From: Enchytraeus crypticus
Taxonomy: Eukaryota > Annelida > Clitellata > Enchytraeida > Enchytraeidae
Assembly (NCBI GenBank): GCA_905160935.1
Contig: CAJHZI010000271.1
Coordinates: 1,107,501-1,171,500, forward strand
DNA: 64,000 bases
Direction: 5' to 3'
Shown here piece by piece: positions 28,385-62,108 of the stretch. The notes below the pieces were generated by a model. It had not been told where the DNA came from and made no database searches. It saw only the letters and a list, made by a program, of their open reading frames with translations. The number at the start of each line of letters is the position of its first letter. Within the stretch, counting starts at the first letter, position 1. The translations under genes were made by a program, and so were the position numbers.

Positions 28385-28535
28385 ACATATCGTCCAGTCT
28401 GTGTGAGTTCCCCAGGGAATGGCAGGGCAGGTGGATAGAGGGGGGTTCATCGGTCGTAGAGATATCAGAGCATGAGTTCAGCAACAAGGGCGTCTGCTAC
28501 GACCAGCTCAGAGACTATTTCCTCGTGGAGAACAG
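28385..28535 (+). CDS. Exon 1 of the DUF7044-type gene (N-terminal half of DUF7044)
   Basis: The acceptor TTTTAG ends at 28384 and the donor GTAACA starts at 28536. Two bases carry over from the previous exon, 49 codons follow, and AG carries over to the next. The peptide contains CEFPREWQGRW near its start and FSNKGVCYDQLRDYF in its second half, ending FLVEN. In the family as I know it, DUF7044 opens with C-x-FP-x-x-W-x-G-x-W and continues with S-x-KG-x-C and a YxL/FL-x-x-N stretch, so the match is clear. The exon sits between a 250 bp purine tract just upstream and a 1 kb minisatellite starting about 50 bp downstream, and is the only G+C-rich stretch nearby. I did not find the preceding exon, expected to end in phase 1 and to carry the signal peptide. 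Confidence 0.85.
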
Positions 28536-28587
28536 GTAACAAGGCTCTAGCGTTATGAGATCTTCTACTCTATGTACTGATTGATTA

Positions 28588-29590
28588 AGTGATGAGCAAA
28601 GTTATGTGATGATTAGGTGATGAAATTATTGTGATGCAATGATTAAGTGATGATTGATGTTATGATTAAGTCATGCAATGATTAAGTGATGCAATGACTA
28701 AGTGATGCAATGATTAAGTAAACGGTGTAATAATTAAGTGATGAGATGATTAAGGGATGCAATGATAAAGTGATACAATGATTAAGTGATGCAATGATTA
28801 AATGGTGCAATGATTAAGTGATGCAACGATTATGTGATGCAATGATTAAGTGATGCAATGATTAATTGATGCAATGATAAAGTGATGCAATGATTAAGTG
28901 ATGCAAAGATTAAGCGATGCAAGGATTAAGCAATGCAAATGATTAAGTGATGCAATGATTAAGTGATGCAATGATTCAGTGATGCAATGATTAAGTGTTG
29001 CAATGATTAGATGTTGCAATGATTAAGTGCTGCAATGATTAAATGATGCAATGATTAAATGATGCAATGATTAAATGATGCAATGATTCAGTGATGCAAT
29101 GATTAAGTGATGCAATGATTACGTGATGAAATGATTAAGTGATGCATTTATTAAATGATGCAATGATTAGGTGATGCGATTATTAAATAATGCAATGATT
29201 AAGTGATGCAATGATTCAGTGATGCAATTATTAAATGATGCAATGGTTAAGTGATGCAATGATTAAATGATGCAATGGTTAAGTGATGCAATGATTAAAT
29301 GATGCAATGATTAAGTGATGCAATTATTAATTGATGCAATGATTAAGTGATGCAACGATTAAGTGATGCAATGATTAAGCGATGCAACGATTAAATGATG
29401 CAATTATTAATTGATGCAATGATTAAGTGATGCAATTATTAATTGATGCAATGATTAAGTGATGCAACGATTAAGTGATGCAATGATTAAGCGATGCAAC
29501 GATTAAATGATGCAATTATTAATTGATGCAAATGATTAAGTGATGCAATGATTAAGTGGTGCAATGATTAAGTGATGCAAATGATTAACT
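28588..29590. repeat. 1 kb minisatellite, 16 bp unit (ATGATTAAGTGATGCA)n
   Basis: About 60 units of ATGATTAAGTGATGCA with point changes (AAATGATGCA, CAGTGATGCA, TTATTAAATGATGC). Blocks near 29330-29420 and 29400-29530 repeat as higher-order groups (AATTATTAATTGATGC then CAACGATTAAGTGATG). The array starts about 50 bp after exon 1. Confidence 0.97.
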
Positions 29591-29825
29591 TGTACTGATT
29601 CAAATAGTATACGTCTGTTTCATAACTTCATGCGAAGTTATCTGACGTTAAGTTATAAAATTAATTATTTTTAAAATCACACGCAGCTTCGTTATCATCA
29701 TTATCATCACACACAGCGGTTTTTTGAAACGTCATTTTCATGTTGGATTTGTTTTTTGTCTACAGCAGTTTTTTTTAATCAAATGATTTGAGTGAAACGA
29801 TTTATAGTAAAATATGATGGGGAAC

Positions 29826-29892
29826 GTTTCTAACATAATCCTTGTATGAGTAACGAAATTAAACCTTTATTATTATTATTATTATTATTATC
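29826..29892 (+). mobile_element. CR1/L2-like LINE tail fragment with (TTA)n
   Basis: ATCCTTGTATGAGTAACGAA then ATTAAACC followed by (TTA)n fits the LINE 3' end in sense orientation. Confidence 0.5.
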
Positions 29893-30220
29893 CGTATTGT
29901 GTCTGAGATACTGATGAATAGACCAATAGTTAGCTGCTCGTGTCGTAATCAGACTGCAAGAACGTATTAGTTGCGTATGCGGACTTTCAAGTACCGCTGG
30001 TAAAATAAGGGGTGGTTATTGAAAGTCATAGATATAACTTGCAATAGGAAGAGGACTTCAAAGCTCCAACAGTAAAGAAAGATTAAGAATATTGAGAGTA
30101 TCATAAATATTGTAGAGATGATTGATTAATAGGTTATGTCTTCGTTTGTATCATTTCAGCCTTTGCTTTCATATTAGTTTCATACAGTTCAAGACCTATC
30201 TTTTCCATCTCTCTTTTCCA

Positions 30221-30271
30221 TCCAGTGTCAATGAGTTACCACCGTGCTGGTGGTAACTCATTGACACTGGA
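30221..30271. repeat. Perfect inverted repeat, 23 bp arms, 5 bp loop
   Basis: TCCAGTGTCAATGAGTTACC then ACC at 30221-30243 is the exact reverse complement of 30249-30271; the loop is GTGCT. Confidence 0.97.
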
Positions 30272-30314
30272 CGTAAACCTCCTTTCTTTAATTCCCTTTA
30301 TCTTTGGACAAGTT

Positions 30315-59348: not shown

Positions 59349-60859
59349 CTCTCTCTCTTCTTCCTATTTCTTAATACATTTATCAATTTATTTTTAGTGC
59401 CAACTCTCTTCAGGAATTCTGCATTGGTAACCTTTTGGGTCCCGCTAATCCTCTCCATTCTTCTCCAAATCCACATTTCCAATGCCTCCAGTTTCCTAAT
59501 ATCTTCCTTCCTTAAGGTCCATGTTTCACATCCATACAATAGCGTGGTCCAAACCAAAGTTTTCACTATCTTTATCTTTGTGTCTTTCTTTAGACTTTTT
59601 GTTAATAGTTCTTTTCTACTACCAAAGGCCGCTTTTGCTTGTGCAATCCTACTGCATATTTCTGTCTCACATTTCCCATCATCGGTTATAGTATGACCCA
59701 AATATTTGAAACTCCTTACCTGTTCCAATTTCGTACCATTTATTGTGATATTAACTTCACCTTTATTATTGGACACTCTCATAACCTTGGTCTTTTTATA
59801 TTAATCTTCATGCCATATCTTAGGGCCGTATCATTCAGCCTATCCATTATCTTCTGCAATCCAATCTCGCTGCCCGCTACCATTCCTTGGTCATCTGCAA
59901 ATCGTACATCTTGTAACAAATTCCCTCCTACTTTTATTCCTTCTTCCAAGTCTTCCATGGCTTCCTCCATCATTGCCTCAGTGTAAATGTTAAACAGCAG
60001 CGGCGAAATGCTACAACCTTGTCTTACTCCACGTCCTCTTTCCCCTTCTTCTGAGTACTCTTGTTGGATTTTGATTTCTGCTCTGCGATACATGTACAAG
60101 TTCAAAATTAGTCTTCTATCTCTCCAGTCAATTCCTTTTCTTTTTAAAATATTCATCATCGTTATTCAATCAATCCTGTCAAAGGCCTTCTCGAAGTCTG
60201 CAAAGTATACAAAAGCGTCATTTCCATATACTAAGCTTCTTTCGCAAAGAACCCGCATTACTCCTATTGCTTCTCTTCTGCCACATCCTTTCCTAAAACC
60301 AAATTGTGTCTTGCTCAGTATCATCTCTGCTTTCGACTGAATGCGATTATTTACTATCTTTAATATGATCTTCGATGCATGAGGTATTAAGCTGATTGTT
60401 CTGTAATCCGAACACTCCACAGCATTGGCTTTTTTGGGAATTGGAATTATCACTGACTTGGTAAAGTCGTCTGGCCAAATACCTGTATTGTACACTTCCA
60501 TACATACCTCCATTAACTTTTTGAGTGTTTCTCCTTCCAATATTTTCAAGAATTCTGCTGGGATTTCATCTATTCCGGCTGCCTTCCCCTTCTTCATACT
60601 GTTAATTGCAGAATAAATTTCCTCCTTCATTAAATCGGGGCCCCTTTTATCGTCTTCTATGATATTTTCTTCTTCTATTTTAAAATCCTCTTGAACTGGT
60701 TTCCCAGCCTCATCATACTATTCCTCTACATATTCTCTCCATCTTTCTTTTACTTCTTCCAGCTCTGTCTTTAATTCCCCATCTTTACCCATTATACTAA
60801 TGTTCTTTGCATCTCCTTTCTTTTTCTTATCGGTTCTTGTTAATATCCTGACTTCCTGG
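59349..60859 (-). mobile_element. RTE-like retrotransposon copy, antisense, truncated at both ends
   Basis: This encodes the same protein as 47023-48524, starting further upstream (K-D-G-E-L-K-T-E-L-E-E, W-R-E-Y-V-E-E). Defects are a TAG near 60720, TGG-to-TGA at about 60166, a one-base loss near 59785 and loss of the last 170 bp or so after R-K-K-R. Catalytic F-A-D-D and the Q-G-C-S-I-S-P segment remain. The sequence TATAGGCCTACT lies on both sides (59337-59348 and 60860-60871) and is probably the target-site duplication. The 3' end stops within AAGAAGAGAGAG, where the AG run may have mimicked the normal (AG)n end. Confidence 0.9.
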
Positions 60860-61104
60860 TATAGGCCTACTATGTTTTATTAAAATAATGTTTTCTAAAA
60901 TCTAATTAATATTTATATAACAAATAAATCAAGAAGTAGCATACTATTCTTAAGATATATATTAAAATAAATAATTTTAAAATAAATATGCACATTAATA
61001 TATCCAATAGCATAAATAAATACATACATGTATGTATATTATACATATTATATATACTATAGGGCATATATAATATAATACATACATAATATCTATAATA
61101 AATA

Positions 61105-61164
61105 TATATATATACTGTATATATATATATATATATATATATATATATATATATATATATATAT
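61105..61164. repeat. (TA)n microsatellite
   Basis: TA repeats with one CTGTA interruption. Confidence 0.97.
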
Positions 61165-61285
61165 CTTAGTGCACTGCCTATTGGCAGGTCAATGGTATAT
61201 AACGCCTCCACTCATATATGTGTATCTTTCGTTTTCCTCATAATGTCCATATACCAGTGGATCTTTAAATCATCTATAGCATTCC
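61165..61285 (-). mobile_element. RTE-like 3' end fragment
   Basis: TCTTAGTGCACTGCCTATTG, GGCAGGTCAATGGTATATAA and GATCTTTAAATCATCTATAG are the reverse of the RTE-like tail. Confidence 0.85.
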
Positions 61286-61364
61286 ATTTGATACACCATT
61301 ATAATTCGGGGATTCTGCTTATGATGAGGTGGACCCTATATATATGTCCATGTACCATGTATAT

Positions 61365-61508
61365 ATATATATACAGTATATATATATATATATATATATA
61401 TATACAGTATATATATATATATATATATATATATATATATATATTATATATATATATATATATATATATATATATATCTATATATATATATATATATATA
61501 TATATATA
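61365..61508. repeat. (TA)n microsatellite
   Basis: TA repeats with repeated TACAGTA interruptions, ending in AGGGCCCTA. Open frames of Tyr-Ile here are artefacts. Confidence 0.97.
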
Positions 61509-61977
61509 GGGCCCTATATATATTTATTTATATATTTATTTATATATTTATTGCTTTATTTCAGGCGTAATAACCCATACATGAATCTTACAACAATGCA
61601 ACAAAAACCAGAAAAGCAAATAGGCTGTGCATAAATTGAGCTATAAGACAATTACTAATAGAATTAGGCATACAAAGCTATAATAGGCTCAGAACATCAA
61701 AATACTTAACTAGCATATTAGCGTTATCCAGCAAGCACATTCTAAACTTTAATCTGTAATTAGAAAGGATAGTATCAAAACTAGGCAATCCGGTTTCCAG
61801 TATATATACAATATATATACATATACGTACATACATGTATATATGTATATAGGGCCTATAAATATATATATACGTATATATATATGTATAAATATATATA
61901 TATACATATATATATATAATGTTGCTTTTGATATTCTTTCTGTAATTCTGCAAACATTGATTTAATTTTTTTCGCAG

Positions 61978-62108
61978 AACTTAGATTTGAGTGTCTGGCA
62001 ACGTGGCAAGATGGGGCGGATAATTTCGCTGTGGGGGCCTTCCTATACTCCTCTCCCTCTCAAGCCAGAACCATTCCAACTACCATTCGCAATAGTTACC
62101 ACTGCTTC
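61978..62108 (+). CDS. Exon 5 of the DUF7044-type gene (start of DUF7042)
   Basis: The acceptor TTTTTTCGCAG ends at 61977 after a strong T tract, and the donor GTAAGT at 62109 is perfect. Two carried bases and 43 codons encode FECLATWQDG, then F-A-V-G, and end in S-Y-H-C-F in phase 0. In the family DUF7042 begins x-C-L-A-S/T-W-x-D/E-G, then Y-L-V-G, and has Y-R-C-F-V-Y, so all three landmarks are present. The next exon should start in phase 0 with the residue after H-C-F; I could not find it in the remaining 1.9 kb. Splicing exon 1 directly to an internal AG at 61984 would also stay in frame, but would skip exons 2-4 and is less likely. Confidence 0.85.

Follow-up and report, generated by a model that had tools for sequence, protein, structure and literature searches.

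Proteins built from the Pfam families DUF7044 (PF23071), DUF7042 (PF23069), DUF7043 (PF23070), and DUF7045 (PF23073) are the closest described systems for the gene reported here. A literature search found no paper naming DUF7042, DUF7043, DUF7044, DUF7045, or PF23069–PF23071, and a broad search returned nothing judged relevant. Comparison with solved structures gave no significant match (best E-value 0.1 for a single sequence, 0.39 and 0.25 for two profiles). A search for a homologue in viral contigs found none, as 15 pattern matches yielded zero confirmed cases. One lead was CG32432, described as GPI-anchored and as the fly equivalent of sol-1 in C. elegans (PMC13123972), and as a gene that ant male accessory glands express at a raised level (PMC2949867). 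The passages on CG32432 in these papers tie nothing to the domains considered here, and the lead was dropped.

The window analyzed is a stretch of 64,000 nucleotides from the Enchytraeus crypticus genome (contig C189, bases 1107501–1171500). Its exons form the 5′ half of an animal-type gene that is real and covers ~54 kb or more. We favor, with a probability of about 0.75, the reading that this gene encodes an A-B-A′-B′ protein, generated when an A-B unit was duplicated in tandem and followed by a linker and a hydrophobic end, and that the product is a GPI-anchored non-enzyme. Here, A and B denote the DUF7044 and DUF7042 domains, and A′ and B′ their DUF7043-like and DUF7045-like counterparts. 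The gene is an ordinary, little-studied member of a known family, with a probable internal duplication.

Five coding pieces of 151, 68, 81, 174, and 131 bp lie on the forward strand of the window, all at the positions that an earlier sequence-only reading had assigned to them. Exon 1 (28385..28535, phase 1 before and phase 2 after) encodes the first half of domain A and on its own matches PF23071 at positions 2–48 (5.5e-9). Exon 2 (41137..41204) covers DUF7044 positions 55–75, with a score of 1.5e-4 alone that is under the curated cut-off, and exon 3 (55551..55631) supplies the end of the domain, reaching position 91 in the join, with no Pfam match at E up to 1 when scanned alone. Domain B begins in exon 4 (57625..57798; DUF7042 positions 2–53, 5.5e-9 alone) and continues in exon 5 (61978..62108; positions 58–87, 0.0011 alone, under the curated cut-off), whose 3′ end is in phase 0. 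All five exons are directly preceded by AG and directly followed by GT. Joined, they give 605 nucleotides, the first two being part of a split codon, that encode 201 residues with zero stops, and the proposed exons, splice sites, and phases are borne out.

The joined peptide matches DUF7044 at residues 5–87 (7.2e-21, 74.7 bits, positions 2–91 of 94) and DUF7042 at residues 104–201 (9.5e-17, 61.5 bits, positions 2–87 of 123), both above the curated Pfam cut-off of 27 bits, which confirms the family identity proposed in that reading. The domain order proposed at that time, DUF7044-DUF7043-DUF7042, has to be revised. The DUF7043 match in the join (residues 3–89, 1.9e-9, 38.2 bits) sits on the residues of the stronger DUF7044 match and is the only one to DUF7043 in the window. 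The actual order is DUF7044 followed by DUF7042, with a DUF7043-like exon ~6.3 kb past exon 5.

Could these exons be a chance assembly of unrelated open stretches? They are short, the sequence is AT-rich, and the splice-site scores are ordinary: with hand-made weights, the acceptors rank at the 68th–99th percentile among all the window's AG sites, and the corresponding range for donors among all its GT sites is the 90th–99.8th percentile. Against this, exons 1, 2, 4, and 5 scanned singly match consecutive, collinear parts of the DUF7044 and DUF7042 profiles (four of five exons), and when domain A was scrambled by hand in two versions, neither matched any DUF. From the stop frequency in intron 1 (7.9% of codons), 201 open codons would arise by chance with P ~6e-8, similarity not yet counted. 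Together with the Pfam scores and the exon borders held in common with relatives, this in effect already refutes a chance origin, in line with the initial judgment that chance was very unlikely.

These borders were compared for exons 1, 4, and 5, as read from the printed sequence of relatives elsewhere in the genome. The exon 1 donor falls at the same codon and in the same phase in five of six relatives; in the one on contig C159, exons 1 and 2 are fused. A possible phase-1 acceptor AG, seen by eye, lies shortly 5′ of the first cysteine in all six. The 3′ end of exon 4 is in phase 1 in 5/5 relatives checked, and exon 5 starts in phase 1 in 4/4 and ends in phase 0 in 3/3. The shared borders thus support, without recourse to RNA data, those proposed for exons 1, 4, and 5.

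Unspliced three-frame scans of the forward strand over ~620–64000, except 62006–62108 (most of exon 5), found no pieces of the gene family other than exons 1 and 4. The remaining matches were reverse transcriptase pieces and sub-cut-off ones, the best being PT repeat (8.6e-4) and FANCI_HD1 (0.0027). The gene had been described as hidden among 33 kb of repeats, which is overstated: listed tandem repeats make up 8.8% of 28385–62108, to which a few LINE copies are added. A LINE-type reverse transcriptase stretch occurs twice, at 47021–48312 (forward strand, intron 2) and 59354–60649 (reverse strand, intron 4), the copies being 95.8% identical and in opposite orientation; a further related piece is found at 40505–40936. 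At 28609–29588, with 73 bases between it and the end of exon 1, a 16-base unit is repeated ~60 times in a 980-base array. The window contains no Rfam match at the gathering score and no tRNA. Upstream of it, near base 1083872 of the contig (L017), an open stretch resembles a JmjC exon of the KDM8/JMJD5 type, perhaps belonging to an upstream neighbor gene.

Downstream of the window, 62 kb were searched by tblastn with peptides of the relatives. The next exon was first recognized in a relative on contig C126, whose peptide identifies exon 6 of the gene in this region (E 0.002) at C189:1173957–1174065, with AG/GT borders. Adding exon 6 raises the DUF7042 score from 61.5 to 83.6 bits and extends the match from position 87 to position 122 of 123 (2–122), so that domain B is matched at full length. 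Exon 6 is 37% identical to its C126 counterpart, compared with 50–64% for the eight relatives that match C126 nearly full length and 42% for a relative on C556 (E 0.24), and it is absent among the 15 matches of a genome search with the C126 exon 6 peptide. On contig C362 (399383–400084, reverse strand), the exon 6-type peptide matches five times within ~700 bases, as if the exon had been tandemly multiplied.

That the window yielded five exons only could mean that the secreted protein is short and already complete, with its end just past exon 5. We consider this highly improbable: exon 5 closes with a GTAAGT donor in phase 0, the phase found in all three relatives checked, only exon 6 completes DUF7042, and A′ and B′ exons then follow. 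The description as a five-exon gene gives way to a model in which these are five of at least 11 exons, with exon 6 onwards located beyond the window.

The longer gene, which we continue to favor, proceeds with an A′ exon at C189:1175889–1176135, found with the peptides of relatives on C388 (tblastn E 8e-7) and C159 (8e-6); peptides from C245 and C463 did not find it in the same 62 kb. The first B′ exon lies at C189:1186161–1186307 (E 3e-6 with the C388 peptide, 0.37 with the C159 peptide), and the second at C189:1186758–1186894, where a weak tblastn match (0.37) has borders that fit. The third B′ exon (C189:1187999–1188125) was chosen by eye from motif and phase. The probable last exon (C189:1189736–1190058) was likewise chosen by eye, for its correct start phase, a P-C pair like that of C388, and a hydrophobic end. 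That A′ and B′ exons follow domain B downstream, in this order, is well supported. On the 5′ side, 40 candidates viewed in 58 kb upstream included no convincing signal-peptide or first exon; the best-looking by eye, which is 39 kb from exon 1 at C189:1096598, is followed by a weak donor. The search gave nothing convincing for further A′ exons. As it stands, the gene model can be checked directly by an annotator, and the gene, found by reading alone, is correct.

Against Pfam, the second half of the gene is much fainter. Domain A′ matches DUF7043 at 14.6 bits (0.042), under the cut-off of 27, and B′ matches DUF7045 at 14.4 bits (0.041), or 15.8 bits (0.015) with its third exon; each is the sole Pfam match of its domain at E up to 10. 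We thus found in the gene neither a separate DUF7043 domain over the cut-off, A′ being DUF7043-like only and partly unfound, nor a DUF7045 domain over the cut-off, B′ being DUF7045-like only. DUF7045 is not listed when the gene is scanned as one model, and C189 is absent from the matches of genome searches for DUF7043 and DUF7045 (E up to 0.1). The A′ peptides of the C388 and C159 relatives have no Pfam match whatever.

This faintness, the greater divergence of exon 6 than in relatives, and the lack of remaining A′ exons and of a signal-peptide exon in the searches would fit a decaying or pseudogenised family member, whose exons are still recognizable and whose working protein has been lost. 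Such decay appears unlikely for a locus in which none of the ten modeled exons nor the putative last exon is interrupted, their borders are AG/GT, and their phases stay consistent over the ~54 kb from exon 1 to the stop, and in which A and B score far over the cut-off.

For the A-B-A′-B′ gene, two lines of evidence point to an internal duplication. Profile comparison, based on small alignments from the Enchytraeus crypticus genome (7, 7, 6, and 3 rows, with only three for B′), pairs A with A′ (P 90.45, E 1.4e-6) and B with B′ (P 90.44, E 1.4e-6), and the four other pairings reach P of at most 0.26. In the B alignment used for this comparison, the C159 row was removed and the C774 row shortened because their ends are doubtfully put together; the B alignment of a further run omits both rows. 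The intron phases tell the same story. The first half has phase 1 before A, 2 and 1 inside A, 1 between A and B, 1 and 0 inside B, and 1 between B and A′; the second has 2 at the first border inside A′, 1 between A′ and B′, 1 and 0 inside B′, and 1 between B′ and the tail. The halves agree at every border known in both, although some B′ and tail borders were chosen partly by phase, and the agreements are not all independent. These comparisons suggest that DUF7043-type domains are related to DUF7044-type domains and DUF7045-type to DUF7042-type, that the four DUFs form two pairs, and that an A-B unit was the origin of the gene. The kinship of A′ with A and of B′ with B is well supported, and with it a tandem duplication of the A-B exon set that gave the present A-B-A′-B′ gene. 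Four DUFs that are listed separately appear to be only two, both occurring twice, making for a simpler hunt for structure or function.

The whole genome (524 Mb, 802 contigs) was searched for further members. DUF7044 gave eight exon-level matches on seven contigs (E up to 0.001), all over the cut-off, and DUF7042 gave 21 on 13 contigs (E up to 0.1), with 14 on 12 contigs over the cut-off. Seven matches to DUF7043 were found on seven contigs (E up to 0.1), four over the cut-off; two of the seven overlap DUF7044 matches, on C159 (over the cut-off) and C388 (under). The single DUF7045 match is under the cut-off, at a site that also matches DUF7042. None of the four families had a match in 14 control genomes. 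On C463, a DUF7042 match over the cut-off is followed on the same strand by DUF7043 and a second DUF7042, both under the cut-off, and the order B-A′-B′ may also exist there.

The product is likely a secreted, disulfide-rich, GPI-anchored surface protein. Secretion and a probable GPI anchor are suggested by the cysteine-rich domains together with the C-terminal hydrophobic ends: by eye, a hydrophobic stretch lies directly 5′ of the stop in the gene and in the C388 and C774 relatives. Charged residues are present within the hydrophobic end of the gene. The protein would enter the secretory pathway, where its many cysteines would form disulfides and the hydrophobic end would be exchanged for a GPI anchor. 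It would then act outside the cell, in recognition at the surface or as an accessory to a receptor, with no enzymatic role. A wider generalization is speculative, and we hold it to be rather doubtful: that DUF7044-DUF7042-DUF7043-DUF7045 proteins form one GPI-anchored family, derived from an A-B duplication together with its intron phases and expanded in this animal to a dozen loci or more, and that their domain A, which starts with W-x-G-x-W, forms a small barrel that binds a ligand.

Among the relatives, the one on C774 (L029, at 1645502, forward strand) is an open stretch, 904 residues long in its locus and 912 in the genome search, that carries a DUF7043 domain and weakly matches ShK; ~17 kb away, on the opposite strand, lies a DUF7042 match. 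Like the gene, it is cysteine-rich with a C-terminal hydrophobic segment, and its DUF7043 is over the cut-off; unlike the gene, it is a single uninterrupted coding stretch that matches neither DUF7044 nor DUF7042 at E up to 1. The third and fourth domains of the gene match PF23070 and PF23073 weakly, in that order and under the cut-off. In the C388 and C159 relatives, the third domains match neither of these families and the fourth match both DUF7045 and DUF7042, under the cut-off. From PF23071 and PF23069, no departure was seen: exons 1–3 and 4–6 match them nearly full length and well over the cut-off.
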